Below, piece by piece: positions 2,361 to 61,620 of a stretch of DNA of 64,000 bases. The notes below the pieces were generated by a model. It had not been told where the DNA came from. It saw nothing but the letters and a program-made list of their open reading frames with translations, and did not search any database. The position numbers and the translations under genes are program-made. The number at the start of each line of letters is the position of its first letter. Position 1 is the stretch's first letter. This DNA is from Diplonema papillatum (taxonomy: Eukaryota; Euglenozoa; Diplonemea; Diplonemida; Diplonemidae), in assembly GCA_030068145.1 (NCBI GenBank), contig JAPJBO010000637.1, positions 62,001 through 126,000 of the forward strand. The letters are read 5' to 3'.

Positions 2361-2560
2361 TACCCTCTTTAAAGCCGGACCCAAATTACACGACCACCAC
2401 GCCCCCCTGTGTTGAAGCTAACTTTTCGTGAACTGGCGCGCTAATAATATCGCCGTTTTTATAGCTGCCTTTCGGATCGTCGCCGAGGCGACTTAAGCTA
2501 ATAAACTTCCTGCGCAGGGGCGCCGACAAGCATTTCTCCGGGTTGCTGGTGCGAGACGCG

Positions 2561-35020: not shown

Positions 35021-35022
35021 TT

Positions 35023-40846: not shown

Positions 40847-41057
40847 CCCATTCCAGTAGGGTACTTCGCGTAACGCGACTTGCTGCCCTCAGCACGCAGG
40901 ATTACTTCCTCGCACTCTTTTCCTTTTGGTACTTCAACCATTGGTGCTGCACACGGCAACCCCATGTCCACTGTGCTCTGCGGAGTTTACTTCGCAGATT
41001 GCCACCGTAAAAAGAAGACAAGTCAGTGCTGCCTAGCGAGTCGCAGTCACAATCAGG

Positions 41058-41346
41058 GCGAGTGCCCTGAGTTTTTTAACTGATTGCTCAGACACGGTTG
41101 TAGGGGCCTTCTCCCCGTGACGGATTCGCCTGTGCTCTAGTAGCACGGGTGGTCCTGGCTGTGACGAGCTACGAACAGCCGCCTGACAAACCAGACTCAC
41201 ACCGCAGTCCTGTCTGCAGACACTCAGGTTCCACGCTGATGATGGTCCGCCTTATGTGTCCGTGGCTTAAAGGACCGAAACACGGCGCAGACGGGACCAG
41301 TGCGGTGTTGAGCACATACCCATTCCAAGCACGTTCTTGCAAACCC
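41058..41346 (+). repeat. 289-bp direct repeat, copy b
   Basis: Second copy of 40558-40846. Its right side meets a run of C and then the left terminal region of the TIR element at about 41450. Confidence 0.9.
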
Positions 41347-41449
41347 CCCCCCCCTCAGGCTATTTTCACTGTGGAGGGGGGAGACGCTACCTGTCACACT
41401 CTAAGGTGGTCACCACGGTGGGCGGTCAGAAAAAAAAATTTTTTTTTTC

Positions 41450-43305
41450 GGAGAAAACCATAAGGGAAGCACTTAAGTCGGGAAAATATTTATCGGAAAC
41501 TGTTTCCGATAAATATTTTTTTTTGTTTCCGATAAATATTTTTTTTGTTTCCGATAAATATTTTCTTGTTTCCGATAAATATTTTTTTGTTTCCGATAAA
41601 TATTTTTCTGTTTCCGATATATATTTTTTTGTTTCCGATAAATATTTTTTGTTTCCGATAAATATTTTTCTGTTTCCGATAAGTATTGATCACTTTGACA
41701 GTAGGTTCACCTACTTCGTCCCGTGGACGACCGCGACGAAGCCAAATACGATCGTTTTTCTATCTAGTTTTGGGTCGAAAGCCTCCCCAGCAAAGGCTGT
41801 TCAATTTTCAACGCCAGATACGCAAACCTTTTCGAATGCAGCACACGGGTATCCATCAAGTGACATCTAACTATCTGGTTGCATTGAGCAGTATCCGGAT
41901 CTGAAAGCTGAAGACTTTGTACCACTTCACCGCGACAAAGGTCACGAACCGGGTTCGGCTTACACTGCAGTTGCAGTAAAACTGCGTCTTGCGCACGAGC
42001 GCGGAAATCCGCCACCCACCATTCGGCTAGATATTGCAAGAACACAACTGCAAAGCTTACTACAAACGGATAGTGTTACAAAGGCGAACGAATCATGCGA
42101 GAACCTACGTAGGGGCCCCTCAACAGCTTTCAGAACGGCAAGTCAAGAAAAGGATAAGTTTGCACATTCTACTTCCGTCTGATCTGCATGTTCCCCAGTT
42201 CTACCCTTCGTTGATCTGTTGTGTGTATTCGCAACGACTTCAGGGTCCTATGCGGCCCCAATACGACAAAACTGCATGCGGTCCTGACCAGGTAACAATC
42301 CTCCTACCTGAAAATGTCTAACCACGACTACGGATTTGGTGCCATCGAGGCAGCCATGGAGTGTAAGTATGTAACGGGGCTTAGTAGTATCGGGGCTGCC
42401 GTGCATACTAGTTCCCGTAAAATATTTGTTTCCCTTGACTTGTGCCATGTCGGACGGTAGGATTTTCCGCGTCAGCCTCATTTCAATCCTGGAGACAAAA
42501 GCACTCACACAATAAAGAGTAGCCCATTTCACGGGCCAAAACTGCCTTTGTTGCAGAAATCAGCAACAAAGGCAAGCGATGACAGAACAGCGCACACGAA
42601 GACGACCGGCTCTGAAGAGACCCGCGCCGCAAGCTGCGCGAGCAGAGGGTGCCAAGCAAACCAGGAAGGAAGGCGAGGAGATTCAGATGGCACAGCAGGA
42701 CGCCCGCGAGGGATCACCGAGGTCGAAAGACAGAAAAGGGAAAGCAGGCGTGGCCAGCTTGAAAAGCTGCAAGCGCGGAGAAGGCACAGGTACAGAGCAG
42801 TCCACATGCAGACGAGCAGCGAAGCGGCCCACATAACAGAGGTATCACACTGGCTCCGGATTACTTAGGGTCCTCGCAAAATCCAATGAAATTGCTTGCC
42901 CAATGGGACTCCCCTTGGGCACATTTCGCACTGGGGACTAGTCCCCAGGAACCCGTATCAAAAATATTTATCGGAAACAAAAAATATTTATCGGAAACAA
43001 AAAATATTTATCGGAAACAAAAAAATATTTATCGGAAACAAAAAAATATTTATCGGAAACAAAAAAAATATTTATCGGAAACAGAAAAATATTTATCGGA
43101 AACAAAAAAATATTTATCGGAAACAGAAAAATATTTATCGGAAACAAAAAATATTTATCGGAAACAAAAAAAATATTTATCGGAAACAAAAAAAAATATT
43201 TATCGGAAACAAAAAATATTTATCGGAAACAAAAAAATATTTATCGGAAACGTTCCGATAAATATTTTCCCCACTTAAGTGCTTCCGATATGGTTTTGTC
43301 TCTTT
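41450..43305. mobile_element. 1.85-kb element with TIRs and inverted subterminal arrays
   Basis: The left end has AAAACCATA, then GGAAGCACTTAAGT, then GGGAAAATATTTATCGGAA; the right end is the reverse complement (TTCCGATAAATATTTTCCCC, ACTTAAGTGCTTCC, TATGGTTTT). Inside the left TIR are about nine units of TTTCCGATAAATATTTTT (41497-41685); inside the right TIR are about 14 units in the opposite orientation (42957-43250). Between them sits the duplicated retroelement 5' region (41672-42705). The target duplication is not clear. Confidence 0.7.
41672..42840 (+). repeat. Large direct duplication, copy b (retroelement 5' region)
   Basis: Second copy of 35023-36104, then 135 bp more of the retroelement coding leader (MTEQRTRRRP at 42579, with AQQDAREG further on in a shifted frame). 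That leader resembles 12054-12200. It shows what followed the leader before the deletion in copy a. It has no reverse transcriptase. Confidence 0.8.
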
Positions 43306-43859
43306 TTTTTTTTGCCCCAAATACCCCAAATACCACACTTTGAAAATTTTTGTGGGCCCACTTTTGGCAGGGAATTTTGACCATTTCACCTTAGAGAATT
43401 TGACCACCCAGCCTCCAAGGCAACTGCACTGTAGAGGGGGGGGGGGGGAGGGGGGGGTCTGGTTTATCCGGCCATCCGGCCAAAGTGGCTGATCCTTAAC
43501 AAGAGCGCTGCCCCCCCCCCATAGATGGAAACATAAAACCCAAAACCCAAGGCCACCAGACACCTAGTATTTGGTGGCCAGCCACTACTGGGCGGCTGGT
43601 CCTTTTTCCCGATCGAATATACACACCTCCGAATCTAAACGGGCGAAGCCCGGCTTTTCTTTGCACCAATCCTTCCAAAAAAGAGGGGGGGATCCGGGGG
43701 GCACCGCCCCCCGGCCGAACGGTACGGTACAGCGACACAGATCGTGCGGTGAAAAACCTCAAGCTTCACGGATTTCCAAGGGAATCTGTGAAGCTTTACG
43801 AACCTTCTCACACTCGTATTTCTTGTTTTCGAGTCCCCCACCAACGAGACCTGTAACCG
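43306..43859. other. No supported gene
   Basis: Contains a G-run (43435-43457) and a short inverted pair: GGTGGCCAGCCACTACTGGG with GGCGGCTGGTCC. No coding frame is supported. Confidence 0.4.
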
Positions 43860-43865
43860 AGTTTA

Positions 43866-46800
43866 ACTAGTGCGTACCCAGTCTGTAACCACTGTAACCA
43901 CTTGTAACCACTTGTAACCGGGTGTAACCAGTCTGTAACCGGGATGTAACCGCTGTAACCACTTGTAACCAGCATGTTGTAACCAGTCTGTAACCGGGAT
44001 GTAACCGCTGTAACCACTTGTAACCAGCATGTTGACCACTGTAACCGGGTGTAACCAGTCTGTAACCGCTGTAACCACTTATGTAACCAGTCTGTATCCG
44101 GGATGTAACCGCTGTAACCACTTGTAACCAGCATGTAACCGCTGTAACCGAGTGTAACCAGTCTGTAACCGGGATGTAACCGCTGTAACCACTTGTAACC
44201 ACTGTAACCGAGTGTAACCAGTCTGTAACCGGGATGTAACCGCTGTAACCACTTGTAACCAGCATGTAACCGCTGTAACCGAGTGTAACCAGTCTGTAAC
44301 CGGGATGTAACCGCTGTAACCACTTGTAACCAGCATGTAACCACTGTAACCGAGTGTAACCAGTCTGTAACCGGGATGTAACCGCTGTAACCACTTGTAA
44401 CCAGCATGTAACCACTGTAACCGGGTGTAACCAGTCTGTAACCGGGATGTAACCGCTGTAACCACTTGTAACCAGCATGTAACCACTGTAACCGAGTGTA
44501 ACCAGTCTGTAACCGGGATGTAACCGCTGTAACCACTTGTAACCAGCATGTAACCACTGTAACCGAGTGTAACCAGTCTGTAACCGGGGTGTAACCGCTG
44601 TAACCACTTGTAACCAGCATGTAACCACTGTAACCGGGTGTAACCAGTCTGTAACCGGGATGTAACCGCTGTAACCACTTGTAACCAGCATGTAACCACT
44701 GTAACCGAGTGTAACCAGTCTGTAACCGGGATGTAACCGCTGTAACCACTTGTAACCAGCATGTAACCACTGTAACCGAGTGTAACCAGTCTGTAACCGG
44801 GATGTAACCGCTGTAACCACTTGTAACCAGCATGTAACCACTGTAACCGAGTGTAACCAGTCTGTAACCGGGATGTAACCGCTGTAACCACTTGTAACCA
44901 GCATGTAACCACTGTAACCGAGTGTAACCAGTCTGTAACCGGGATGTAACCGCTGTAACCACTTGTAACCAGCATGTAACCACTGTAACCGAGTGTAACC
45001 AGTCTGTAACCGGGATGTAACCGCTGTAACCACTTGTAACCAGCATGTAACCACTGTAACCGAGTGTAACCAGTCTGTAACCGGGATGTAACCGCTGTAA
45101 CCACTTGTAACCAGCATGTAACCACTGTAACCGAGTGTAACCAGTCTGTAACCGGGATGTAACCGCTGTAACCACTTGTAACCAGCATGTAACCACTGTA
45201 ACCGAGTGTAACCAGTCTGTAACCGGGATGTAACCGCTGTAACCACTTGTAACCAGCATGTAACCACTGTAACCGAGTGTAACCAGTCTGTAACCGGGAT
45301 GTAACCGCTGTAACCACTTGTAACCAGCATGTAACCACTGTAACCGAGTGTAACCAGTCTGTAACCGGGATGTAACCGCTGTAACCACTTGTAACCAGCA
45401 TGTAACCACTGTAACCGAGTGTAACCAGTCTGTAACCGGGATGTAACCGCTGTAACCACTTGTAACCAGCATGTAACCACTGTAACCGAGTGTAACCAGT
45501 CTGTAACCGGGATGTAACCGCTGTAACCACTTGTAACCAGCATGTAACCACTGTAACCGAGTGTAACCAGTCTGTAACCGGGATGTAACCGCTGTAACCA
45601 CTTGTAACCAGCATGTAACCACTGTAACCGGGTGTAACCAGTCTGTAACCGGGATGTAACCGCTGTAACCACTTGTAACCAGCATGTAACCACTGTAACC
45701 GAGTGTAACCAGTCTGTAACCGGGATGTAACCGCTGTAACCACTTGTAACCAGCATGTAACCACTGTAACCGAGTGTAACCAGTCTGTAACCGGGATGTA
45801 ACCGCTGTAACCACTTGTAACCAGCATGTAACCACTGTAACCGAGTGTAACCAGTCTGTAACCGGGATGTAACCGCTGTAACCACTTGTAACCAGCATGT
45901 AACCACTGTAACCGAGTGTAACCAGTCTGTAACCGGGATGTAACCGCTGTAACCACTTGTAACCAGCATGTAACCACTGTAACCGAGTGTAACCAGTCTG
46001 TAACCGGGATGTAACCGCTGTAACCACTTGTAACCAGCATGTAACCACTGTAACCGAGTGTAACCAGTCTGTAACCGGGATGTAACCGCTGTAACCACTT
46101 GTAACCAGCATGTAACCGCTGTAACCGAGTGTAACCAGTCTGTAACCGGGATGTAACCGCTGTAACCACTTGTAACCAGCATGTAACCGCTGTAACCGAG
46201 TGTAACCAGTCTGTAACCGGGATGTAACCGCTGTAACCACTTGTAACCAGCATGTAACCACTGTAACCGAGTGTAACCAGTCTGTAACCGGGATGTAACC
46301 GCTGTAACCACTTGTAACCAGCATGTAACCACTGTAACCGAGTGTAACCAGTCTGTAACCGGGATGTAACCGCTGTAACCACTTGTAACCAGCATGTAAC
46401 CACTGTAACCGAGTGTAACCAGTCTGTAACCGGGATGTAACCGCTGTAACCACTTGTAACCAGCATGTAACCACTGTAACCGAGTGTAACCAGTCTGTAA
46501 CCGGGATGTAACCGCTGTAACCACTTGTAACCAGCATGTAACCACTGTAACCGAGTGTAACCAGTCTGTAACCGGGATGTAACCGCTGTAACCACTTGTA
46601 ACCAGCATGTAACCACTGTAACCGAGTGTAACCAGTCTGTAACCGGGATGTAACCGCTGTAACCACTTGTAACCAGCATGTAACCACTGTAACCGAGTGT
46701 AACCAGTCTGTAACCGGGATGTAACCGCTGTAACCACTTGTAACCAGCATGTAACCACTGTAACCGAGTGTAACCAGTCTGTAACCGGGATGTAACCGCT

Positions 46801-46950
46801 GTAACCACTTGTAACCAGCATGTAACCACTGTAACCGGGTGTAACCAGTCTGTAACCGGGATGTAACCGCTGTAACCACTTGTAACCAGCATGTAACCAC
46901 TGTAACCGGGTGTAACCAGTGTGTATCCGGGATGTAGCCACTGTAAAAAC
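43866..46950. repeat. 71-bp satellite, about 40 units
   Basis: Each 71-bp unit is itself seven GTAACC-headed blocks of 9-11 bp (GTAACCACT, GTAACCGAGT, GTAACCAGTCT, GTAACCGGGAT, GTAACCGCT, GTAACCACTT, GTAACCAGCAT). From about 44100 to 46900 the units are almost identical, with alternations such as GAGT/GGGT and ACT/GCT. The left 250 bp is scrambled. Because 71 is not a multiple of 3 and the unit has no minus-strand stop, all three minus frames are open for about 3 kb; these are not genes. The array ends about 20 bp before the ATG at 46969. Confidence 0.97.
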
Positions 46951-46968
46951 CAGCTATAACCGTTCTCA

Positions 46969-49900
46969 ATGGAACCGTCGTCAATTCTCCATGCACACTC
47001 AGGAGTTCAAGTCGATCCTAATAAACGAGAATCAACCATGACTACCCCCCGTTGCGTGAACGTCTTTGGACTGACCCGCGCTCAGTACGTAAGTAGCGCA
47101 CTGTCTGCCAAGGAGAAAACTGCCATTCTGTTGGTACTGGTGTTTGTGTTATCGTCCTCGCTGATCCGGCGAAGCAAGCCGGCTGCACACTCGTCTACAG
47201 CACAGAGCAGCATGAGCGTCAGCGACACCGACGGCGGATTCGAAGACCGGACTGGCCAGTTCGGAGAAGACAGGCTGGCCGAGACAACGGCGCTCTACCT
47301 CCGGCTCCCCTCTCGTGTAACGTCATCGGAAACCGAACCCGATTTGTATCCGAGATTCGCACCTCCGGAACAAGAACTCCTCGTTCTCGCCTGTGCCCAA
47401 GCACCGCCCCTCGCCGCCGAAAGATTGACCCGAAGACAGCGCCGGTGGTTCCGCCAGCTTCGCCGGCAATGGATCGCCCAGTGGCACGTACGGCTTGGCA
47501 AATTGAGGGCTTGCCTCGGGGTAATACAGGAGTTCTTGTGTCAAGAGGAGGGTCCGCTGTCGGAAGTCGCCTGGGCAAACCCACTCAGGAACTCGGATCG
47601 CCAGCACTGGCAGCAGGAAGAAACTCTACAGCTGCTGATCCGCGATCCGACGGGGCGACTGCGTACAGCGACCGTCGACGGAACGTCGAAACTCTCGCAG
47701 GTCCTTAAGATACCACCGGAGGAGTCCATCTGGGCGAGTAAAAGGGGAGGGGGCCTAGCCCCGCTGTCCATGGACGCCAGGATCGAGGAACTCGGGCTGG
47801 TAGGAGGCGACGAGATTGAGCTGCACGCACGAATGAGAGGGGGGAGTGGTAGAGGCTACCAGGAGACCCGTGTCCCAAGTTGTGCATCCACACCGACTGC
47901 TCCAGCATCCGCAGCTGCACCGGCGCCACCTGCAAGTTGTGCGTATTGCAACCCTGGTGTCTTATCAAGAAACCTTCTGTGCACAACATGCTCCGCTCCT
48001 GCGACCGAGTTCCCGATTTGTTATGTCACGCGCGTTCCAGTTGCGTTGTACGGGCAGTGGACTGCAGCGAATAAGGCTTTGCCTCGGGTACAGAAAGTGC
48101 TATGTGCCTCAACTGCGGACTACCTCCGAGATGCGTTCGGAAGTCTCACTGCAGGGCTCGCGTGGCCCATCCGGCGCATTCTCTCCGAGTTTGCTGGAAA
48201 GCCATTCGACACATTCGACCGCATACCGCTGCTGCAGGCCGCGTCGGTGTTGTTTGTCTTGTCCCAAGTGAGCGACACCGTGGATCAAACGATCCGGGCT
48301 CGGGCACGCGCATCCGCGCCAACTGCGCCTGCGATTTGTGCATATTGCAACGTTCGTCTGCCAGATACTTCAACCGATTCAATCACCCATCTGTGCACAG
48401 AATGTGCCGGTGCGCCCGACTTCTCGGCCAAGGCTTATTGCGCGCGCGTTCCAGAAGCGTTGCACGGGCAGTGGACTGCAGTGAATATGGCTGAGCCCCC
48501 AGTACAGAAGGTAAGTCATGAATCACGAACGGACTACCTGAAACACGTGTTCGGACACGCGGGGGCGGTCACAGCTGGGCTCGTGTGGCCCATCCAGCGC
48601 ATTCTCTCCGAGTTTGGAGGATGTACGTTCTGCACGATGCACCTGGTGCAGGCCACATCGATCTTGTTGCTCTTGTCTCGAGTGAGCGACACGGTGGATC
48701 AGAAGATCCGGGCTCGCGCACGCGCACTCGTGCCGACCGAACCTGCTTTCGCACCGACTGCACCTGCCTCCGCGCCGACTGCCTCGCCGATTGAACCTGC
48801 CTCTGCGCCTGCCTCCGTGCCGACTGCACCTGCTGTTCCTCGCGAATCCGACGTGGCTGAGATGCCAGCTAGAAGTCCCGTCCCCCGCGACCTGGCTGAG
48901 GTGTCAGCTCTGCCCACTGACATCGACCTGCGACCTCCGACCGCCTCCGCGCCGACTGCACGTGCCTCCGCGCCGATTGCACCTGCCTCCGCGCCGACTG
49001 CACCTGCTGTTCCTCGCGAATCCGACGTGACTGAGATGCCAGCTAGAAGTCCCGCCCCCCGCGACCTGGCTGAGGTGTCAGCTCTGCCCACTGACATCGA
49101 CCTGCGACCTCCGACCGCCTCCGCGCCGACTGCACGTGCCTCCGCGCCGATTGCACCTGCCTCCGCGCCGACTGCACCTGCTGTTCCTCGCGAATCCGAC
49201 GTGACTGAGATGCCAGCTAGAAGTCCCGCCCCCCGCGACCTGGCTGAGGTGTCAGCTCTGCCCACTGACATCGACCTGCGACCTCCGACCGCCTCCGCGC
49301 CGACTGCACGTGCCTCCGCGCCGATTGCACCTGCCTCCGCGCCGACTGCACCTGCTGTTCCTCGCGAATCCGACGTGACTGAGATGCCAGCTAGAAGTCC
49401 CGCCCCCCGCGACCTGGCTGAGGTGTCAGCTCTGCCCACTGACATCGACCTGCGACCTCCGACCGCCTCCGCGCCGACTGCACGTGCCTCCGCGCCGATT
49501 GCACCTGCCTCCGCGCCGACTGCACCTGCTGTTCCTCGCGAATCCGACGTGACTGAGATGCCAGCTAGAAGTCCCGCCCCCCGCGACCTGGCTGAGGTGT
49601 CAGCTCTGCCCACTGACATCGACCTGCGACCTCCGACCGCCTCCGCGCCGACTGCACGTGCCTCCGCGCCGATTGCACCTGCCTCCGCGCCGACTGCACC
49701 TGCTGTTCCTCGCGAATCCGACGTGACTGAGATGCCAGCTAGAAGTCCCGCCCCCCGCGACCTGGCTGAGGTGTCAGCTCTGCCCACTGACATCGACCTG
49801 CGACCTCCGACCGCCTCCGCGCCGACTGCACGTGCCTCCGCGCCAAGAGCACCTGCCTCCGCGCCGACTGCACCTGCCGTTCCCCGCGAATCCGACGTGA

Positions 49901-52900
49901 CCGGGGTATCAGCTATAACCGCTGAAGACCCCGAACCTCAACTTCCTTCTCGCTGCAGCCCGGCAAGCCGACTCGGGACTCCCCCTCCCGAGTACGGTAG
50001 TCCCGACCCGCTCTGGATCTCCCGCGACCCCGACCTGTCTGAGGTGTCATCTCTACCCGCTGAGGAGATTGACCATGTAGCTCGCGATACGAAGCGAGGG
50101 GTGCACGGTTTGCGCAACGTGACGGGGAGCTGTTGCTTCGCAAGCTCTGTAATACAGATGCTGCGGATGTCGAACTGGGCACAAACGGTTCAGGGGGACG
50201 GCAGTGCTTTCCGGGAGTCGCTGCTCACTCTTCTCAGGAGTGATGGCGAAGATTCATCTTCCGCTGAGATGACGTCTTTTTTGCGCGAATTGCCTCCGTA
50301 TCTTGACGGTACCGTTCAAGAAGACGCCGGGGGAATGCTGCAATATGTGCTGCAGCAATTCAGCAGTGCAGAGCTGACATGGCTGTGTTCGCTTGAGAGA
50401 ACGACGATGGTTTGCCACCAGTGCGGGAGGCGCCGTCTCGTTGCCGAGCCCACCCCTGTCGTGTTCTTGCCTTTCAAGCATGGTGAAGGTACGCAGAAGT
50501 TGCTGGAGTCCACCAAAGATGTGGAGCTCGTCGACGACATCGACTGTGACCGTTGTGGTGTAAGGACGAAGACTTCGAAGAGCTCGAAGGTTCATTTGCT
50601 GGACCGCCAAGAGGATGTCCTCATGTACTGCAACCGTTTCGGCAGGTTTGAGGAGAGGAAGCACCCCGGCAAACCGAGAGGCTTGGTAACGCACAATGGG
50701 AGGACGCTCCATCTGCGCGCCTTCACCGTCCACCAAGGAGACTCCCGCACTGGCCACTTCATCTGCGTGACTCGGACCTCCCTCGGTTGGGCCGTCCACA
50801 ACGACTCGGTCACGGAGCACTCGGTTAAGTTTCCGAAGTACGAAGGCGAGGTAGTCGTCTTCCTGTACTCGAAAACGCCGTTGCCACCGACGGAGGAGTC
50901 AGTCGTTGCTCCGCCGGTACGTGGGCCGCCGACGATTGTTGTCGGGGATTCGTTTCCGTCCTGGGGAGAAAGGTGCTCCGAACTTCTGGTTACCTGCTTG
51001 GAGACAGCCTCAACCTCCTCGGTTGAGCAGCGTTTGCAATCCGTGCAGACGGGAAAGACATGCGCACTCTTCGCATGCGTGATGGCGTTGCATGACGTCG
51101 GGCCAACGCAAGTCGGCGAGGACATGCTGAAGGCGTGCGCGGCGGAGTTTGGCACCACCGTCGAAGCGTGTTCAAATTATGGGGTGAACACGGCAGTGGT
51201 CGATGCTTTCGCGAAGAAGTTCAGGCTGGGAGCGCTGCGCTACCGGGACCTCGCCGACATTCTGAGTGGAAGGAGGAAAGCCGCACACGAGAGGAACATA
51301 TTGTACCTTTCGTGCGGGGGGCCCGAGGGCCACTTCATCTACCTGCGGCTCCCTGACGCGATCCTCAAAGCGGAAGAAAAGTCGCTGCAGAGCGTTGCAG
51401 AGGCGCTGGTTACGCGATCCCGATGCAGTATCAGCACCGAGACCGGTCGTGAAGAGGCGCCTACGAGTCCTCATGCAACATCGGAGACCGGTGAAGAGGC
51501 TCCAACTAGTCCTCGTGCTGCCACGCCGGTTCTGGCATCGGAAGCACAGACCAACCGATCGCCTTCCACGTCTGGCGCCGTCGCCCACCTTGACAAGTGG
51601 GAGTATCGTGTTTTTTCCGTCAGGTCGTCAACTGCCGAGACCGACCTGACTCACGGGTTGGAAACACTCGGGGCCCGATGCTGTGAAGGCGGCTTCACCA
51701 GCGATGACACACGCCAGGGCGTCGCAACATACGTCGCCGGCTTTGTTGTGACGAGGCTGCAACAGGGAAACAGGGTACTTGGTGTTCCCAGCGACGAGGC
51801 ATTGCGGCTTTGGTGGCAGACAGCGGGGGAGCATGCCGTTGGCAAAGAGCAGGCGCCTGTGTACGAGAACAGCATGCGACTGCAGTTGTACACCCCTCTC
51901 CCAGGAAGCGGGCTCGATGCCATCGTCCAACAGGCAGTAAAGGCACCGTTAGTGTCGGTCCGTAAAATCCGGTACGTGGTTGGCAACTGCCCAGTTACCG
52001 CGTTACGGGCAATCTTCTCTGGAAACGTTGCCAGGTCCGTGCTCCTGGTTGAAGCCGTTTCCGGCAAACGGACTGCGAGCCACTTTTTCGTCATCGAAGT
52101 GGCTCCAGCACGTTCACCAGCACGTCCTGAGAAGAAGACGATGGTCGTCATGAAGGAAGGCATGCTCGTGCCAGAGCGGCCTCTGACGAGCAAACGTCCA
52201 CTGCACACGCTAACAGGGGTCGCGTGTTTCGAGCCAGTTGGAGATGGGCTGATGATTTGCAAGATCTGCAAACAAGCTCTCATCAACGACCTCGTGGTAA
52301 AGAAGCCACCTCGCCTTGAATTCGCCAAAGGTGGGGTCAAGATCCCAACCGGTTCCGCTGGGGAGAAGAAGCGAAGCGACCATGAGAAGTCGGAGTTTCA
52401 CGTGGCCGCAAAAGAGGCTCTCCTCGCACCTTTGCTCCCGTGCGACCGGCTGCTGCAGACGCATGCATTGCGCAAAATGCAAACGACAAAGCCCGCCCCC
52501 CTGCCGAAGAAGTCGCCCGCAGCGTTGCCGTCTATTCCGGCTGAAGACGTCGCGCTCTACAACCTGCATGCCCGCATGTACGTTGGGGTGAAGAATGGCC
52601 TGAGCCACTCGGCCATGATCAAAGAACTTGCTGGCGAGCGCCTGCAGCACGTTACTTTGGAGGCCAGGTACAATAACCGTACCGCTCTTCGAGAGCTTAT
52701 TGGAATCTGGTCCGAGCTCTTGCTGAACCGGTTTCGGCAACAGTTGCTGGCTGAAGGGCCTGAGAACCTGTCGCCCCTGTTTCTTGTGGTCGACGCATCG
52801 ACCATGCCGCATGCAGGGGACGACGTGGTAGGCGTACGTGTGCGATACGCCGATGCCTCGGAACCCAGTCTTTTGAAGGAGACCTTCATTGGGCTTGTGC

Positions 52901-55344
52901 CAAACGTTCCGAAGGGGTCGGACAACGCGAGCGCGACTGGGGACGCCACGTACAAGGCAGTTACGAAGCTGCTCAACCCCCTCTCCGTCAGCATGTCGGA
53001 CATTTATGGGTGGTGTTCCGACGACGGCGCGACTATGATAGGTCGAAATGAAGGGGTGATAGCGCTGATCGCTAAAAACAGCGGGCGCAAAAAAAAGGGC
53101 ATCGCTAAAGCGCTCGATGCGGCTCACCTGCTTCAGACAAAGTTGAAGTTTGTTCTGGAAGATCCCGCTGTAAAGCAGATCACCAGCACCGTTCGGTCGG
53201 TGAATCGGATTTTCAAATCCAGCACGCTGATGCGCCGTACCCTTCGGGAAGCGTGCTCCGAAGCGGGAAAGACGGCGTTGAAACCGGATGGCAGCTGGCG
53301 AATTCGCTGGCTCAAGAAATGGGCAACGTCGATGACGAAAGCGTCTCGCATGCGCGACGCGTGGGCGAAATGCCTCAGCATGGAGTCGGTCGTCAGGCGG
53401 GCGCAGAAGAAGGGGAAGTCGGAAAAGCGGCAGAAGGTGACGAAAAAACGGCTCCGGATTTCGAAGAAGCTGTGCGAGGAAAAATTCGTGACTGGCCTGA
53501 GGTACTTGTCTCAGCTATTCGGAGCCCTTGCGTGTCCGCAGCTGATTGGGCAGTTGGAGGCGGGTCAGGCCAGCCAGATTGCTGCCTACCTGCAGAAGGC
53601 GCAGCTCGCACTTGCGGTGATGAATGTCCCGGACGCGTACCTCAGCGTCCATCATCGTGCCATCTCGTTGCTGGTCCCGGAGACCGTCATGTCTGCCAAC
53701 GTGCTAGACGCCGTCACCGTGCTGGATGTCGGTCTCCTGAAGGAACGTCTTGTCGACACCGATTACGGCGAGTCTGCATGGACGCGCATGTGCGAACTTG
53801 CGTACCCGAACGACAAGGAGCACAGCGCGCTGCTGAAAGACTGGGGGAAGGTCAAGGAGGCCGCCCGGAGCACCAAACTTCTCTTCCTCGACTTCTGGAG
53901 GGCGCGTTTGGTGGAGTTGTCGGACCAGGGTTCTCGTGCCGCTCGTGTCCTTCAAGTGACACTCTGCACCGGGTGTGCCAGCAGCTGCGGCGTAGAGCGC
54001 GACTTCGGCGAAATGCGTTGGCGAGTTAGCGAGCTCAGAAACCGGGTGGAGGTGGAAACAATCAGCCAAGAGATGCTGATATCGAAGAACGGTCCATCAC
54101 CGGCTGATGCTCACGACTTCCTGATGGATGGCATCCGGTTCTGGAACGTAAAGGACCGAAGGGATTGTGGCGGGCGCCCAAAAAAGGAGACCGACTCGGA
54201 GGCGGAGCGGAACCGGAAGACGTGGACATGGGTAGAGGCCATGCATCGCCGAGGGCAAGACCCTGCCGTCCAGCGGACCGTCGACGAACTGCGTGAACGA
54301 GATCTCGCGCATTGGCTCGGGGTAAAGGGCCTCCTGGGTAACATCGCAATTGCCAGCATCGTTGCGGCTCTGCTGACGGCTCGCGTGGCAGGTCCGACTG
54401 GACAGCAGCCGGTGGCCCGCCCAAGCATCACTCCATCCGCGGTTTCTCGATCGCGAGTTACCCCGACCGCCAACGCAGCTACCTCATCGCCTGGGCAGCA
54501 GCCGAAAGCTCAAAGCATCCCTTCCGCGGGTGCTCGACCACAAGTTGCCCCGGGTGCCAAAGCATCTACCGCGTCGCAGCCCATCGCCACCCTAAGAAGC
54601 ACCCCTTCCGCGGGTGCTCGTTCACGAGTTGCCCCAGCCGCCAACGCAGCTACGTCGTCGCCTGCCAACACTGCTCAATCAAGACCTGCCCCTTCTCGGC
54701 CAAGAGGGTCCATATCAGCCTCTGCAGCGCCGTCTGCCGTAGCAGCTCCATCGCAGCCTGCATCTGCTTCGCCTATTCTGCTCCCTGTTGTTACGGCTTC
54801 AGCGAAAAGAAAGCAAACCCACCAACCCGATACACTGGGAACACACAAACGCCTCCGCACGACATCGGCCACTAAACCCGCCCCGTCAACAACTGACAAG
54901 CGTTCCTCAGCAGCTGTTCCCGCAGTCCCACAAGGCAAACGCACGACACCGGCCACTAAACCCGCCCCGTCAACAACTGACAATCGTTCCTCAGCAGCTG
55001 TTCCCGCAGTCCCACAAGGCAAACGCACGACACCGGCCACTAAACCCGCCCCGTCAACAACTGACAATCGTTCCTCAGCAGCTGTTCCCGCAGTCCCACA
55101 AGGCAAACGAAAACGTGCCTCGTCATGCCCGCCCTCTTGTCCGCCGCCCAAGGCCATAAAGCGAAGCAACGTGTCGTCGTCAGAGCTGATCGCGAGCAAA
55201 AAGTCGTCGAAAAAGGTCTGCTGCGTGAACCAGCAACATAATGCCACCACCAGGGGATCGATGCCCGTCCTGCTCATTGCACACCGGGTGGTTTCCAAGC
55301 CCGGTACTCTGCATCCTGTAAGAACCCACGGACAACGCACGTAA
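46969..55344 (+). CDS. Giant fusion ORF: ubiquitin-like / USP protease / hAT transposase
   Basis: A single 2791-codon frame from ATG (46969; a second Met is codon 24) to TAA. In order: hydrophobic segment 51-66; ubiquitin-like domain about 220-292 ending RMRGG; two tandem Cys-rich modules of about 133 residues (C324/C327 and C457/C460); Pro/Ala-rich linker with six 58-residue repeats (codons 625-972). Then a ubiquitin-specific-protease domain: Cys box GLRNVTGSCCFASS with C1056, zinc-type pairs CHQCG and CDRCG, His box GHFICVTR with H1263, then WAVHND (D1279). A second Cys/His segment follows (C1365, GHFIYLRL H1455), then a BED-like finger (C1764, C1767, H1805, H1811). The hAT transposase has D1942 in LVVDAST, D2018-D2019 in CSDDGATMIG, AH2053 and SSCGVERDFGEM with E2343 in the C-terminal dimerisation region. 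The tail is Ala/Ser/Thr/Pro-rich with three 28-residue repeats. hAT enzymes cut and paste DNA. A deubiquitinase in the same chain is unusual; its target is unknown. No stop interrupts it, so it may be recently active. Confidence 0.8.
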   Translation: MEPSSILHAHSGVQVDPNKRESTMTTPRCVNVFGLTRAQYVSSALSAKEKTAILLVLVFVLSSSLIRRSKPAAHSSTAQSSMSVSDTDGGFEDRTGQFGEDRLAETTALYLRLPSRVTSSETEPDLYPRFAPPEQELLVLACAQAPPLAAERLTRRQRRWFRQLRRQWIAQWHVRLGKLRACLGVIQEFLCQEEGPLSEVAWANPLRNSDRQHWQQEETLQLLIRDPTGRLRTATVDGTSKLSQVLKIPPEESIWASKRGGGLAPLSMDARIEELGLVGGDEIELHARMRGGSGRGYQETRVPSCASTPTAPASAAAPAPPASCAYCNPGVLSRNLLCTTCSAPATEFPICYVTRVPVALYGQWTAANKALPRVQKVLCASTADYLRDAFGSLTAGLAWPIRRILSEFAGKPFDTFDRIPLLQAASVLFVLSQVSDTVDQTIRARARASAPTAPAICAYCNVRLPDTSTDSITHLCTECAGAPDFSAKAYCARVPEALHGQWTAVNMAEPPVQKVSHESRTDYLKHVFGHAGAVTAGLVWPIQRILSEFGGCTFCTMHLVQATSILLLLSRVSDTVDQKIRARARALVPTEPAFAPTAPASAPTASPIEPASAPASVPTAPAVPRESDVAEMPARSPVPRDLAEVSALPTDIDLRPPTASAPTARASAPIAPASAPTAPAVPRESDVTEMPARSPAPRDLAEVSALPTDIDLRPPTASAPTARASAPIAPASAPTAPAVPRESDVTEMPARSPAPRDLAEVSALPTDIDLRPPTASAPTARASAPIAPASAPTAPAVPRESDVTEMPARSPAPRDLAEVSALPTDIDLRPPTASAPTARASAPIAPASAPTAPAVPRESDVTEMPARSPAPRDLAEVSALPTDIDLRPPTASAPTARASAPIAPASAPTAPAVPRESDVTEMPARSPAPRDLAEVSALPTDIDLRPPTASAPTARASAPRAPASAPTAPAVPRESDVTGVSAITAEDPEPQLPSRCSPASRLGTPPPEYGSPDPLWISRDPDLSEVSSLPAEEIDHVARDTKRGVHGLRNVTGSCCFASSVIQMLRMSNWAQTVQGDGSAFRESLLTLLRSDGEDSSSAEMTSFLRELPPYLDGTVQEDAGGMLQYVLQQFSSAELTWLCSLERTTMVCHQCGRRRLVAEPTPVVFLPFKHGEGTQKLLESTKDVELVDDIDCDRCGVRTKTSKSSKVHLLDRQEDVLMYCNRFGRFEERKHPGKPRGLVTHNGRTLHLRAFTVHQGDSRTGHFICVTRTSLGWAVHNDSVTEHSVKFPKYEGEVVVFLYSKTPLPPTEESVVAPPVRGPPTIVVGDSFPSWGERCSELLVTCLETASTSSVEQRLQSVQTGKTCALFACVMALHDVGPTQVGEDMLKACAAEFGTTVEACSNYGVNTAVVDAFAKKFRLGALRYRDLADILSGRRKAAHERNILYLSCGGPEGHFIYLRLPDAILKAEEKSLQSVAEALVTRSRCSISTETGREEAPTSPHATSETGEEAPTSPRAATPVLASEAQTNRSPSTSGAVAHLDKWEYRVFSVRSSTAETDLTHGLETLGARCCEGGFTSDDTRQGVATYVAGFVVTRLQQGNRVLGVPSDEALRLWWQTAGEHAVGKEQAPVYENSMRLQLYTPLPGSGLDAIVQQAVKAPLVSVRKIRYVVGNCPVTALRAIFSGNVARSVLLVEAVSGKRTASHFFVIEVAPARSPARPEKKTMVVMKEGMLVPERPLTSKRPLHTLTGVACFEPVGDGLMICKICKQALINDLVVKKPPRLEFAKGGVKIPTGSAGEKKRSDHEKSEFHVAAKEALLAPLLPCDRLLQTHALRKMQTTKPAPLPKKSPAALPSIPAEDVALYNLHARMYVGVKNGLSHSAMIKELAGERLQHVTLEARYNNRTALRELIGIWSELLLNRFRQQLLAEGPENLSPLFLVVDASTMPHAGDDVVGVRVRYADASEPSLLKETFIGLVPNVPKGSDNASATGDATYKAVTKLLNPLSVSMSDIYGWCSDDGATMIGRNEGVIALIAKNSGRKKKGIAKALDAAHLLQTKLKFVLEDPAVKQITSTVRSVNRIFKSSTLMRRTLREACSEAGKTALKPDGSWRIRWLKKWATSMTKASRMRDAWAKCLSMESVVRRAQKKGKSEKRQKVTKKRLRISKKLCEEKFVTGLRYLSQLFGALACPQLIGQLEAGQASQIAAYLQKAQLALAVMNVPDAYLSVHHRAISLLVPETVMSANVLDAVTVLDVGLLKERLVDTDYGESAWTRMCELAYPNDKEHSALLKDWGKVKEAARSTKLLFLDFWRARLVELSDQGSRAARVLQVTLCTGCASSCGVERDFGEMRWRVSELRNRVEVETISQEMLISKNGPSPADAHDFLMDGIRFWNVKDRRDCGGRPKKETDSEAERNRKTWTWVEAMHRRGQDPAVQRTVDELRERDLAHWLGVKGLLGNIAIASIVAALLTARVAGPTGQQPVARPSITPSAVSRSRVTPTANAATSSPGQQPKAQSIPSAGARPQVAPGAKASTASQPIATLRSTPSAGARSRVAPAANAATSSPANTAQSRPAPSRPRGSISASAAPSAVAAPSQPASASPILLPVVTASAKRKQTHQPDTLGTHKRLRTTSATKPAPSTTDKRSSAAVPAVPQGKRTTPATKPAPSTTDNRSSAAVPAVPQGKRTTPATKPAPSTTDNRSSAAVPAVPQGKRKRASSCPPSCPPPKAIKRSNVSSSELIASKKSSKKVCCVNQQHNATTRGSMPVLLIAHRVVSKPGTLHPVRTHGQRT
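48841..49884 (+). repeat. 174-bp coding repeat, six units
   Basis: Six in-frame units of 174 bp (58 codons) start with CGCGAATCCGACGTG at 48841, 49015, 49189, 49363, 49537 and 49711. A seventh, partial copy starts at 49885. Units 2-5 look essentially identical at the DNA level. The encoded unit runs RESDVTEMPARSPAPRDLAE to APTAPAVP. Minus-strand frames across it are shadows. Confidence 0.95.
54856..55107 (+). repeat. 84-bp coding repeat, three units
   Basis: Three in-frame units of 84 bp (28 codons) carry TKPAPSTTDNRSSAAVPAVP. They lie near the C-terminus of the giant ORF and differ at two or three bases. Confidence 0.95.
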
Positions 55345-56095
55345 TGTTTGATTCCCGGGTCTATTTTTCACGGATCTCTTCATCGAAGCTGATCGCGAGC
55401 AAAACTTTGTCGACAAAGATCTGCTACGCGGACCAGCAACAGAATGCCACCAGCCAGGGGATCGATACCGTCCGTGTTCAATGCACACCTGGTCAGGCTG
55501 GTGGTTTCTACGCCCGGTGCCCTGCAAATTGTAAAAACTACTGACCACGCACATAGTTTCTCGTCTCCGGGTCTATTTTTCACGGATCTCTTCATCGGAG
55601 CTGATCGCAAGCAAAAATTCGTCGGAAAAGGTTTGCTATGTGGACCAGCGGGAAAATGTCGCCAACCAGGGGATCGATTCCCGTCCTTCCCAATGCACAC
55701 CGGTGGTTTCCACGCCCGGTGCCCTGCATCTTGCACGGACCCACGAACCACGCACATACTTTTTCGTTTCCGGGTCTATTTTTCACGGATCTCTTCATTG
55801 CAGCTGATCGCGACCTAAAATTCGTCGAAAAAGGCCTGCCGCGTGGTCCGGCGGGAAAATGCCACCACCCAGGGGATCGATTCCCGTTCTTCTCAATCTA
55901 CACCTGGCGGCTTCCACGCCCGGCGCCCGGCAACTTGTAAAGGGCCACGAACCACGCACATAGTTTTTCGTCTCCGGGTCTACTTTTCACGGATCTCTTC
56001 ATCGGAGCTGAAAACGAGCAAAAATTCGTCGAAAAAGGTCTGCTACATGGACCAGCGGGAAAATGTCACCAACCAGGAAATCGATACCCATTATG
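55184..56095 (+). repeat. 204-bp array copied from the end of the giant ORF
   Basis: Five units with GAGCTGATCGCGAGCAAAA at 55184, 55388, 55600, 55803 and 56007. Each contains AAGGTCTGCTACGTGGACCA, CAGGGGATCGAT, CACGCCCGGTGCCCTGCA and GGGTCTATTTTTCACGGATC. The first unit is the last 51 codons of the ORF plus its stop region; the others are non-coding copies at about 85-90 percent identity by eye. Confidence 0.9.
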
Positions 56096-56340
56096 TGTGT
56101 GCACACGGAGAGGGCGGGGGGGGGTACCAGGGGGGGTTTGGGCGACTCTGAAAACGAGAATGAGGCAGAAACTCTGGTTTCGTCGCAATTTTTTTGCATT
56201 TTTGGGTACCTACCTGAGGTTTTCTGACGAAAAAGACGTGAACATATTTTCAGTCGTCTGGGCAGCTATTTTAGCTATTTTTAGCTAAAATAGCTAAAAA
56301 TAGCTAGCTGGCCAAATAGCTAGCTAAGTCTCACACTGCT
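56096..56340. other. Short spacer with TAGCTATTTT palindromes
   Basis: No gene. AGCTATTTTAGCTATTTTTA, then its inverted form and TAGCTAGCTGG lie at 56270-56325, immediately before the retroelement fragment. Confidence 0.5.
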
Positions 56341-57793
56341 GTGGGGGCCGTCTTCGACTTCGCTTGCATCGATCAGGCCACGCAGTCTTGCTTGGCGACG
56401 ATCACGGGTATCGAGACGGACGCCTCCGCCTGGGCCCTGGCTTCCCTTCCCGTCAGGCTAGGCGGCCTGGGTCTGCACTCCTGTGCAGACACAGCGGCGA
56501 TCGCGCATATCGCGGCCACCTTTGACGGCGAGGCTTGCCTTCCATCCCTGGTGACCCCCTACGTGCTGCCGCACGCCATGCTTCTGGACGAGGACGACAC
56601 TTTCCTAGCGTCCCTCGATGACCCGCGCCTTGCACCCTTCGAAACCGTTTTGGAGAAGATCCAGAACGCTCTGCAGGCACGGGATAACTACGGGGGACGT
56701 GGACAGAAAGTGTGGTCCGCGACGGTTCATGACGAGCGGCGCAAGGCCCTCATCATCTCGATGACTGAGGAGCTGGGCAGGTCAGGCCAGCTCCAAGGGT
56801 CGGCGCTGGCCCTGAAGCAGGTCCAAGTCCGGGCGCGGATCCAAAGCTGCTCCGGCCAACATGCGTCCGCGTGGCTTTACGGCAACGCGGAGGCAGACCC
56901 CAAGCTGTGGCTATCCCCCGCGGAGCTCGCGGTGGCCATCCGGCTCCGGCTGGGGCTGCCCATCGCCCCCATGCCGAGCATCTGTCGCCTTTGCGGGACA
57001 GGCTCGGCTGACGTTGACGGAGTGCATGCGCGGAGCTGCTTCTCCGGCGGCCGCCGGACGAGAATGCACAATGCACTCCGCGACGTCATCGCTGACTTCG
57101 CCCGCCGTGGCTTGCTGGCCCCGGCGGTCGAGCGCCCCGTGTTTTCGAACACGGAGCGGAAGCGCCCGGACATCAGCTATGTCCGGGACGGCACCACCGT
57201 TGTGTTAGATGTCGCCGTCACCTTCCCCCTGCAGCCATCGAATCCCCAGTACGCTAAGAGGGCAGCGGAGAAGCCAGGGGGGGCGGCGACAGCCTACGCA
57301 ACAGCTGTCAAAGAAGGCAAGTACCGCGGCATAATAGACAACGAGCCAAACCCTCGGGAATGGCTCGCTGTCCCGCTGGTCGTGGACACCTTCGGAGCGT
57401 GGTGTCCTGGAGCACTCACGGAGTTGCGGCAAATAGCCCGCAAAAGCGCCCTCCGTGAAGACCGGACCGCTTCGGCCGCCTGCCAGGACTTCTTCCACCA
57501 ATTGAGCTTTCAGGTAGCCCAAGGGGTGGCAAGAATAGTCATTGCATCTGGTGGGGCGCGACCGGACGAAGCGGTCCACCCTGTTGCAGGGGGTAGTGTC
57601 ACTGCATCGCGGGTTTTTTTACCTGGTCGGACCTGCTCGCTAGCAGGCCAGCCCAGGTCGCAGTGAGACTGGCGTTCACTGTGTGCTGAAGAAGCATTTT
57701 TTTGGGCTCCCGCTCCGGAAGCAACCGGATACCGGTAGCCCCGCTGTACCAACATGGCTTGTACAGTGTCCCGCGCTCCAAAAAAAAAAAAAA
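56341..57793 (+). mobile_element. 5'-truncated non-LTR retrotransposon with restriction-like endonuclease
   Basis: The frame 56341-57666 (441 codons) begins inside the region after the RT core (SLPVRLGGLGLHSC). It carries a zinc knuckle, CRLCG then GVHARSC (C215, C218), the segment GGRRTRMHNALRDVIADF, and a PD-(D/E)xK endonuclease core RPDISY with VVLDVAVTFP (D277, D290). This endonuclease type marks the R2/CRE/Utopia-like groups. The ORF is followed by about 115 bp of 3' UTR and a run of 13 A (57781-57793), taken as the poly(A) tail. Reverse transcriptase motifs are missing, so it is a dead 3' copy. Confidence 0.75.
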
Positions 57794-57795
57794 CC

Positions 57796-60000
57796 ATTCC
57801 TGGAATGCAGAATCGGGGGCGACGAGAGAGCGACCATGTGGAGACGGGTCCACAAGGCCATCCCGGACACACCAAGGGAAAAGCCGACACCCAGGGAAAG
57901 GCACAAGCTGCTTTGGCCGCTGCTCTTCGAGCTCCCTGAAGCAGCCCTCGCGTACCTTCAGGCCGTGGGGCTTGTGCCGAAGTACGAGGTCTACGAAGAC
58001 CCACCTGAGCCCGGCACACCGGAACTCGACGACAACATGGCGGCAGCAGCAACCGATGGCGTCGACAACACCTTCGACCTCGAGGGATCAAGCTCCGAGG
58101 ATGCCGAAGGCTGGGCATAGTTCGGGCCGGGTCGGAAGACTGAGGCGGCAACACACCCGGCACATCCGTGCAAAGCAACCTCACCCGACCGCCGGTGCAG
58201 GCGCAACAGGGCTGCTGAGTGCGAAGCGCGAATCAGTACGCTGACGGCGCAGTCCAACACCAGACGCACACACCCGGCACTACACAGTCCCCACGGCCAC
58301 CGACCAACCGCCGCAAGGCGGCAGCAGTAAACCGGCAGCACGACAACGGAGACGCAGGCGCCGACGAACAGCCGAAGCCCGCACGCCGACACGGACGCAG
58401 CCGGTCACCGGACCGAACAGCACCTGAGAACAATAAGAAAAGAGAGGGGAAAAAAAGAAGGCAAACAAAAGTACCACCGCAGCAGCGCAACAGCGCCGCG
58501 ACCGAACACGACTACCAACGAAGGGTAGACTCGGTGCACCGACAGCACACCCACCTGACCATAGGAAGGTCCAAAAGGGTGGAGTGAGCACTGGAGCGGT
58601 CACTGAGGCAGATAGGTAGCTGCAACACAAGAACAGTGCATTAGCAACCAAAACAAAAAAAGACAACCCTCCGGGCCGAGAGCGGACAATGAGCACGGGA
58701 TAGAACAGCGTCAGAAACACCAGCCCGGTGTTTCCGACTGCCGGAGACGACCTGGCCAACGGACCGCACCACGCAGAGTGAGCACTGGAGCGGTCACTGA
58801 GGCAGACAGGTAGCTGCAACACAAGAACAGTGCATTAGCAACCAAAACAAAAAAAAGACAACCCTCCGGGCCGAGAGCGGACAATGAGCACGGGATAGAA
58901 CAGCGTCGGAAACACCAGCCCGGTGTTTCTGACGCTGCCGGAAGCGACCAGGCCAACGGACCGCACCACGCAACAGCGCCGCAAAGCGAAACAGAGACAA
59001 GCAGCAAGCTCAAAGGCCCCGGAAGGAAGAACAAAGTAGAGGCAGGCGAAGCGCCCAACGGACCGCACCACGCAACAGCGCCGCAAAGCGAAACAGAGAC
59101 AAGCAGCAACCAAACCAGCCCCCCCCGACCGAAGCGGAGGACCGACTCAACAGGCAAACCCTGGCACGCCAGGGTTTACCAACAGAAGTCAGAACACCGC
59201 CCGGAAGGGAGAGCCGCACAACAAGTCCAAAAAATACCCCCCACCAACTGCCGAAAAAGAAATACCTTTCCCTTACCTTGTCCCACAAAACCAGAACCAA
59301 TAACAACGCCCCCCCCCCAAGCACGCAAGAGAAGCCGAGTCCTGCCAAAACAACAGACAACGTATTAACCCCCCGTTTCAGTGCTACACGCACCACGCTC
59401 AACAACAACCCACAAGAGCGAAGGCAGCAGGACGGGCAGCGGCAGCGAAACAGCGCCACGCGCCCGACAACAACAGGAAAGTCCCGAAGCGAAAGCAAAC
59501 CCCCCCCGACCGACACGGAAGACCGACTCAACAGGCAAACCTGGCACGCCAGGGTTACCAAAAGACGTCAGAACACCGCACCGGAAAGGGAGGGCGAGCG
59601 AAGGACGAAGCCACAACAAAACCAAGGAAAAACAACCATCACTGCACACAACACGCAGAGCCAAGCAGCATATCAGCAGCGAACCAAAGCAAACCCTTGA
59701 CAAATTACTATCACAGGCAACTGACAGCACGACAATCGCCGGAAACACACCGACCGCGACTGGTAAAGCCTGGCACGCCAGGACATCATTACCAAAACAG
59801 CGGCAAGAAACAAGGGGAGGGCGGGCAAGAAACAATCCCACTGAACCCCCCCACAACCATACCAAGAACGAACGAAAGGAAACAGAAAACAAACAAACGC
59901 CCCAAGGATGAAGAGGAGGCACAAGGAACCTTAGCACCGTATCCCCAAGCCTAACCCGGGTGCGGTTTCCAAATTTTTGAAATTGAAATTGAAATTGAAA
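57796..60000 (+). mobile_element. 5'-truncated RNase H-type non-LTR retrotransposon, copy 1
   Basis: Only the last 108 codons remain (FLECRIGG, RHKLLWPLLFELPEAALAYL, YEVYEDPPEPGTPELDD, stop at 58120). They match the end of the 60050-60928 ORF. About 1.84 kb of 3' UTR follows, with internal direct repeats at 58583-58735 and 58776-58928 (193 bp apart), at 58968 and 59064, and at 59125-59215 and 59516-59605. It ends CCAAGGATG, GGCACAAGGAACC, then a tail of AATTGA hexamers (59977-59998). Confidence 0.7.
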
Positions 60001-60049
60001 ACAGTAAGTAGAAGCGAAGGCGCTTCATAGGACTAAGAGCACGCAGGCT

Positions 60050-61620
60050 AACACCTGGTTCCTGACGGACTCCAGCTCACTGCTGACCGAGCTAAGGCGA
60101 GGCCCACACAAGCAAAAAGAGCCAACCAACATCGAAATCTGGCAGCTGCTCGAAAAGCTCGTGGCGAAGGGGCACACGCCGATCCTGCAGTTTGTCTTCG
60201 GACACTGTGCCCTGGCGGGTAACGATGAAGCGGACGCACTGGCGAAAGGCGGTATCTCCACAGCGCATGTGGAAAAACAACCGCCAATGACGGTGGCAAC
60301 GGCAAGGGCGCGCTACCGCGAGCACACCTGGGAAAGCGTGCATGCGTCAGCGATGAAGGCATCCCCGTACCGTCCCGGCGGACCGCTACCGTATGCGCAA
60401 CTCGTTCGAGGACGCAAGGTGCCCAAAACAGCGCACCTCACGAGGCGTGCGGAGCGAGAAATCCGCCAGCTGAGGACAGGGCACCACGAGCTCCTCCACA
60501 ACCGGTACCGCAAAGACTGGGAAGACCTCGCAGCCGAAGAAAGGCAGAGAGTCCGTCCGTGCGAGCTTTGCGACGCGACGCCCGTCTGCCCGATCACGCA
60601 CCTGTTCCTCGAGTGCAAAGTCGGGTACGCCATGAGGGCGCCGATGTGGAGGCAGGTGTTCGAAGCCGACCCGAAGGTCCCGAGGGAGCTACCGGCGCCA
60701 GCTTCGAGGCACAAGATGCTCTGGCCCCTGCTTTTCGAGCACCCGGAGGCAGCACTCGCCTACCTGCAGGACGCTGGGCTCGTGGCGAGGTACCAGATAC
60801 TGGAGGACCCGCCCGACCCCCAAACCCCCGCCTTGCATGAAACCCCGCAGGCAGGAGGGCCCAACTTCGCCGACGCGCTGGACCTCGACGCAACAAGCAG
60901 CGCAACAAGCTCGAACGACTGGGTTTGACGAAGACTCGCCGCATCGACGCTCAGACGCAAGCACCAACAGCAGCAGCAGCTTAGACCGCTAACCGGCCAA
61001 TGCCTATGAATGAAAAGAACGGGAGGGAAAAAAAAAGAAGAGACCGAACGCAGACAAACGCACAGGCGCCAAGCCTGGCAGCAACAACCCTCAGACCGAG
61101 TCGGAGGAATGCACGGTGCACCGACAGCATGCACACCTGACCATAGGAAAGGTCAAAGTAAGGGTGAAGCAAGCTTACGAGCGGTCACCGGGATGCAGAT
61201 AGAAAACTGCATGAAACAACGTACAAGTGCACTAGCAACCAACAAGACAATCTCCTGGAGCCGGCGTCGGGAGGGCGAACTAAGACGCTAACGCCCACCG
61301 ACACCCAGGAAGAGCCCGCATCGGACTGCCGCCGCGAAACAGCACCGCGCAGACCACCCCGGATCTCCCTTTTCTCCACCTCTTATTTCCATTTCCCCTC
61401 TGTTCAGTTCCGGGAGTAGGGGAGGGCGGGCAAAGTAAAAAGCTCACTGAACCCCCCCGCCACAATGTGAGACTGTAAAAACAAAGAACGAAACCGAACA
61501 CGAAAACAAACAACGCGCCAAGGATGGCGACGGGGAGGCACAAGGAACCACCTCACCTGTTCTCAAGAACTAACCCGAGGCAGGTATCCACCGTACCGAT
61601 AACCGATAACCGATAACAAT
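60050..61620 (+). mobile_element. 5'-truncated RNase H-type non-LTR retrotransposon, copy 2
   Basis: The frame from about 60050 to the stop at 60928 starts inside RNase H (LTDSSSLL, NIEIWQLLEKL, GHCALAGNDEAD). It continues with RRAEREIRQLRTGHHELLHN and a zinc knuckle CELCDATPVCPITHLFLEC, and ends SSATSSNDWV. It is clearly related to 35969-38638 (same RNase H and RRAEREIRQ). The 3' UTR (60929-61600) repeats the GAGCGGTCAC and AGTGCACTAGCAACCAA text of copy 1 and ends GGCACAAGGAACC, then an ACCGAT hexamer tail (61595-61618). The catalytic RT and the first RNase H residues are missing. Confidence 0.75.

Follow-up and report, generated by a model that had tools for sequence, protein, structure and literature searches.

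Can a single gene of a diplonemid join a ubiquitin-like domain and a deubiquitinase to a transposase, and if so, does that gene belong to a mobile element or to its host? The question is raised by an open reading frame (ORF) of 2791 codons at 46969-55344 on the forward strand of our window, the 64,000-nucleotide stretch of DNA that was analysed, from the marine diplonemid Diplonema papillatum. We read the locus, tentatively and with slightly less than even confidence, as a hAT-type transposase gene of D. papillatum (DUF4371-hATC layout) with an N-terminal module formed by a ubiquitin-like (Ubl) domain and a USP-type deubiquitinase. As to its origin, we lean towards a lineage-specific gene derived from a transposon.

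The open frame and the deposited gene model

The uninterrupted 2791-codon frame claimed in a preliminary description of this DNA is borne out: read with the standard code, it is free of internal stops, as against 89, 80, 49, 35 and 76 stops in the other five frames of 46969-55344. Judged from the sequence, translation may begin at M1 (46969) or at the alternative M24 (47038). The residues singled out earlier (C1056, H1263, D1279, D1942, D2018, D2019 and E2343) had all been placed correctly.

Four further observations support a single translated frame at the sequence level. First, the stretch between the two halves (residues 1311-1760) would stay open by chance with a probability of about 8.5e-6, given its own rate of stops in alternate frames. 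Second, in codon-usage scoring trained on residues 1890-2400 and run in 27 windows of 100 codons, frame 0 outscored the other two forward frames in 21 windows, five of which are the training stretch itself. Across residues 1301-1800 it led the forward frames in five of five windows, and all six frames in four of these with a tie in the other; the six windows in which it did not lead the forward frames (residues 301-400, 601-800, 901-1000 and 2501-2700) are repeat-rich except for residues 301-400. Third, the repeat period is divisible by 3 in all three tandem arrays wholly inside the ORF, compared with 8 of 29 outside it (one-sided p 0.033). Lastly, a CxxC module that is duplicated in tandem within the ORF shows a dN/dS of 0.61 between its copies (bootstrap 0.40-0.90).

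The same observations bear on the possibility that the locus is a relic, a once-active fusion that is open by chance or has recently died. Protein searches over limited length ranges returned no relatives outside the locus, and the ORF carries large in-frame repeat expansions, as a relic might; against this, none of the 2791 codons is a stop, the catalytic boxes of the USP are intact, and even the upper bound of the module dN/dS is 0.90. We consider a relic very improbable.

The linker itself, between the USP domain and the zinc finger (residues 1340-1749; 50986-52215, forward strand), matches no Pfam family above the cut-off. Its PDB sequence matches, to STING and immunity proteins, have E-values of 0.031 or worse and were taken as chance. 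By eye only, two Cys...His stretches in it look papain-like: C1365/H1455 (GKTCALF...GHFIYL) and C1674/H1705 (GNCPV...SHFFVI).

A deposited D. papillatum protein, DIPPA_31316, agrees with ORF residues 2023-2338 at 314 of 316 aligned positions, and residues 314-347 of the deposited protein are encoded at 55080-55181 in a different frame; we therefore take it as the deposited model of this locus. It is the only annotation that we have seen here, and it disagrees with the single-exon reading: the protein is 382 aa long, starts at M2023, covers ORF residues 2023-2335 and continues into an Ile/Val-rich tail, so that D1942 and E2343 are missing. It would suggest that an open frame runs by chance through two or more distinct genes, or through a gene that is spliced, with DIPPA_31316 nearer the truth. 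Its jump from residue 2335 to 55080 fits a GT-AG intron from GT at 53973 to AG at 55078, a boundary pair that we derived from the sequence at both ends, and introns are reported in about 41% of D. papillatum genes (PMC10161547). However, we distrust the model because this intron removes E2343 and has its acceptor inside an 84-bp tandem repeat, and because the last 35 residues of DIPPA_31316 are not found within the window. Spurious introns among tandem repeats are themselves reported in the D. papillatum genome paper (PMC10161547). Together with the low chance of an open linker, this makes the split or spliced alternative improbable.

Repeats also bound the ORF. Upstream, a 71-bp minisatellite (43 copies at 96%; 43883-46946, forward strand) ends 22 bp before the first ATG. 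At the other end, the C-terminal tail (54429-55109, forward strand) is rich in Ala, Pro, Ser and Lys and holds two in-frame 84-bp tandem arrays, and a 203-bp array (55183-56089, forward strand) begins in the last codons of the ORF and continues beyond the stop. This array across the ORF end resembles the repeat-bounded genes of D. papillatum, a pattern described for dozens of gene models in the genome paper (PMC10161547). The word TGTAACC occurs 297 times in the 71-bp array, always on one strand, and 0 times elsewhere in the stretches counted; the idea that these words are two-sided transposase sites was dropped for that reason.

The ubiquitin-related half

The claim that a Ubl domain, a USP-type deubiquitinase and a hAT transposase share one frame stands for the first two, and for the third by consensus alignment and domain order but not by Pfam or by structure prediction. 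Of the four Pfam families named in this context, UCH rises above its cut-off, and ubiquitin, hAT dimerisation and DUF4371 do not. No other family exceeds its cut-off on the separate pieces (transposase, zinc finger, linker, Ubl and CxxC modules), and NCBIfam gives no match on the whole ORF.

The deubiquitinase (residues 1040-1310; 50086-50898, forward strand) is a member of the USP family by Pfam profile and sequence motifs. Pfam UCH (PF00443) aligns to residues 1047-1284, scoring 28.2 bits when the full ORF is searched and 36.7 bits (E 4.4e-9) when the piece is excised, the cut-off being 23.9. The motifs comprise C1056, a QEDA box at 1117, the finger pairs CHQC1149 and CDRC1193, H1263 and D1279, with the GHF...ND box kept. 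A search of PDB sequences with the USP piece at E<=10 listed ten sequences, of which eight are USPs, led by USP21 (E 0.0062), and the other two calmodulin; USP21 reaches E 0.2 when the full ORF is the query. The Cys box, GLRNVTGSCCF, aligns to GLRNLGNTCF of USP21, a segment that alone contributes only 1.2 bits. In a protein search with residues 1040-1330, no relative appeared even at E<=10 among 2472 candidates, which came from limited length ranges and shared 5-residue words with the query.

Upstream, residues 212-296 (47602-47856, forward strand) are predicted to adopt a ubiquitin fold, which the models support. The AlphaFold model has a pLDDT of 77, and in Foldseek 49 of 50 titles among the matches listed are ubiquitin-fold proteins. 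The tail of the domain reads RMRGG (residues 288-292; 47830-47844), followed by SGRG, and ubiquitin aligned to the whole ORF finds its top placement at residues 220-292, ending at RGG. The Pfam ubiquitin-family profile reported nothing on this piece at E<=10.

Between the Ubl and USP domains lie the CxxC-pair module in two tandem copies of about 135 residues (residues 321-455 and 455-605; 47929-48783, forward strand), identical at 79 of 130 aligned residues, and a Pro/Ala-rich spacer (48804-49901, forward strand) built from 6.3 copies of an in-frame 174-bp (58-codon) tandem repeat. The modules match Pfam families only below the cut-off (Abhydrolase_10, E 0.0065; DZR_2, E 0.012).

Host USPs such as USP4/15, USP7 and USP14 also hold Ubl and USP domains in one chain, and built-in Ubl domains of this kind regulate the USP. 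The ORF is like them in this respect. Unlike them, it has a Ubl that ends in RGG in the manner of a processable precursor and is separated from the USP by about 750 residues, and it continues into a transposase-like domain. The Ubl domain of the ORF may thus either regulate the USP or be cut from the chain by it after RMRGG, which would release the N-terminus.

The hAT-like half

The hAT-like transposase domain (residues 1880-2420; 52606-54228, forward strand) was assigned from its residues and from consensus alignment. It contains D1942, D2018 or D2019, DxxH at 2050-2053, RW at 2113-2114, E2343 and RNR at 2357-2359, with spacings of 76 and 325 in D1942-D2018-E2343. If the alignment is right, D2050-A-A-H2053 occupies the position of the hAT CxxH motif, with the His kept and the Cys replaced.

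Pfam recognises the DUF4371 and hAT C-terminal consensuses that we aligned as DUF4371 (1.1e-20, restricted to its residues 2-84) and Dimer_Tnp_hAT (9.1e-31). The former has its top placement in the ORF at residues 1939-2094 with a score of 68, against a shuffle mean of 32 and 35 for the reversed sequence, and 0 of 1000 shuffles reach it. The latter falls at residues 2307-2374 with a score of 47, which 5 of 1000 shuffles reach; since the reversed sequence scores 41, this match is weak when taken alone. The two signatures do stand in the expected order, DUF4371 and then hATC.

Other searches gave no match. The Pfam hAT families PF05699 and PF14291 were absent at E<=10 on the pieces and at E<=5 on the whole ORF, as was any BED family, and a search of PDB sequences with the transposase piece was empty at E<=10. 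The AlphaFold (AF2) model of the transposase, built without an alignment, has a pLDDT of 40.5, and Foldseek returned 0 matches for it at E<=0.001. Protein searches, again over limited length ranges and shared 5-residue words, found none among 7251 candidates for residues 1040-2400 and, among 7995 scored for residues 1770-2420, DIPPA_31316 only. A search of viral contigs returned no relative. The consensuses found no hAT relatives either (the C-terminal consensus in viral contigs, the DUF4371 consensus in viral and prokaryote contigs), and therefore no family alignment was possible. We regard a divergent hAT half, with no Pfam family or usable model behind it, as plausible from its sequence.

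Ahead of this domain lies a putative BED/TTF-like zinc finger (C1764-x2-C1767...H1805-x5-H1811; 52216-52443, forward strand). Its Pfam match stays below the cut-off: zf-C17orf113 gives 16.9 bits (E 0.0057; cut-off 29.5), and an unrelated winged-helix family reaches 16.5 bits (E 0.010) on the same stretch.

The layout can be compared with BuT2, a 2,775-bp element with 12-bp terminal inverted repeats (TIRs) and 8-bp duplications whose 643-aa transposase has DUF4371 at 116-229 and hATC at 515-603 (PMC3942097). As in BuT2, a DUF4371-like region is followed by a hAT C-terminal dimerisation region at a fitting spacing and with the acidic residues in place (PMC3942097). Unlike BuT2, the ORF is 2791 aa long, has an added Ubl-USP half, and showed no termini in the flanks scanned (PMC3942097).

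Mobile element, host gene and known precedents

The search for termini covered both flanks. An exact 8-bp duplication accompanied by a TIR of at least 9/14 was absent from 41000-46969 and 55344-60500, and relaxed TIR pairs in 41000-47040 and 55344-60500 were at control level (at 9/12, 6 pairs where controls average 5.9; for longer pairs, below the control mean). One candidate pair, 42287/57627 (11/12, with 7/8 of a duplication), was rejected, as 6 of 63 overlapping control offsets give an equal pair; the left end also lies inside a repeat (41860-42702) that is unbroken in its second copy at 35249-36091. No second copy of the locus was found within the window. Because the Pfam profile failed and the scanned flanks held no terminal repeats, we do not file the locus as a proven hAT transposon. 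A more far-reaching reading, in which a hAT lineage that is or was recently mobile carries its own ubiquitin-like precursor and USP, cuts itself after RMRGG and deubiquitinates the transposase or its target chromatin, we hold to be unlikely; it would amount to a cut-and-paste transposon with a complete ubiquitin module of its own.

The locus might instead be a domesticated host gene, in which the hAT part no longer transposes and, as a dimer bound to DNA, recruits the USP to chromatin, for example as a histone deubiquitinase. The flanks without terminal repeats or an 8-bp duplication above control and the single copy in the window fit this proposal; so do the replacement of CxxH by DxxH, the former being required for hairpin formation in Kat1 (PMC4763223), and a repeat-bounded architecture that is also described for ordinary D. 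papillatum genes (PMC10161547). On the other hand, the D, D and E residues and the RNR stretch are apparently kept, missing termini around one copy are little proof, and conservation is seen in no second species. We give domestication a real chance, though on the unlikely side.

Under the preferred reading, a hAT-type transposase gene with an N-terminal Ubl-USP module, the whole ORF would be translated as one chain, in which the zinc finger and the hAT part would bind DNA and the deubiquitinase would travel along. The latter could strip ubiquitin from the transposase or from target chromatin proteins, and in this way prolong transposase activity.

Deubiquitinases carried by transposons have precedents, and Helinoto reportedly has three deubiquitinase-like domains. 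Helitrons and Helentrons carry OTU and VTD deubiquitinases, whose proposed role is to shield transposition proteins from the proteasome (PMC9741609), and by inference from this analogy the ORF may work in the same way. Like these, it places a deubiquitinase of the papain-fold class in frame with a transposition enzyme, the fold here being deduced from the USP family; it differs in its USP class, in a hAT-like rather than rolling-circle enzyme and in its own Ubl (PMC9741609). Ulp1-like proteases occur in MULE and CACTA elements, some rice proteins combine Tnp2 and ULP1 domains, and in KI-MULEs the Ulp1-like sequence runs opposite to the transposase gene (PMC2528002). In these elements too, a DNA transposon carries a cysteine protease related to ubiquitin or SUMO, but the ORF has a USP, and MULE and CACTA are other transposase superfamilies (PMC2528002).

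Transposon deubiquitinases are thus already known from Helitrons (PMC9741609). Searches of the open-licence literature for a USP, deubiquitinase or Ulp1 together with a hAT or another transposase, covering mostly titles and abstracts and passages in PMC2528002, PMC9741609 and PMC7599744, listed no USP, with or without a Ubl, joined to a hAT. Section 8 of the D. papillatum genome paper names TATE, MULE and Helitron proteins among DNA transposons and mentions no hAT (PMC10161547), and no word in the main text of the paper begins with 'hat' or 'ubiquitin'. If the preferred reading is true, the capture of deubiquitinases by transposons extends beyond Helitrons and has recurred in the Euglenozoa, with a different class of protease and a different kind of transposase. 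D. papillatum is reported to be genetically tractable (PMC12621601), which would permit a direct test of whether a transposase gains from the deubiquitinase that it carries.

The rest of the window holds several unrelated features. An 889-aa ORF at 35969-38638 matches Pfam RVT_1 (reverse transcriptase) and RNase_H, and the segments 35015-35219 and 35249-36091, before and in its start, are repeated at 41659-42702 with 95-96% identity. Arrays of a 21-bp unit (TTTCCGATAAATA...) lie at 41454-41687 and 43067-43297 in opposite orientation, an arrangement that resembles a small element with long inverted repeats. A 654-aa ORF (2543-4507) matches the palm domain of mitochondrial poly(A) polymerase just under the cut-off (E 1e-5; 26.1 bits against 27). 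Two arrays of one 16/51-bp minisatellite, with units like TATCTCATATCGCAAA, lie about 2 kb apart at 25765-26083 and 27832-28383, and an ORF at 23822-24577 matches the FGAR-AT N-terminal domain (E 3.9e-21) and is probably an exon of this purine synthesis enzyme.
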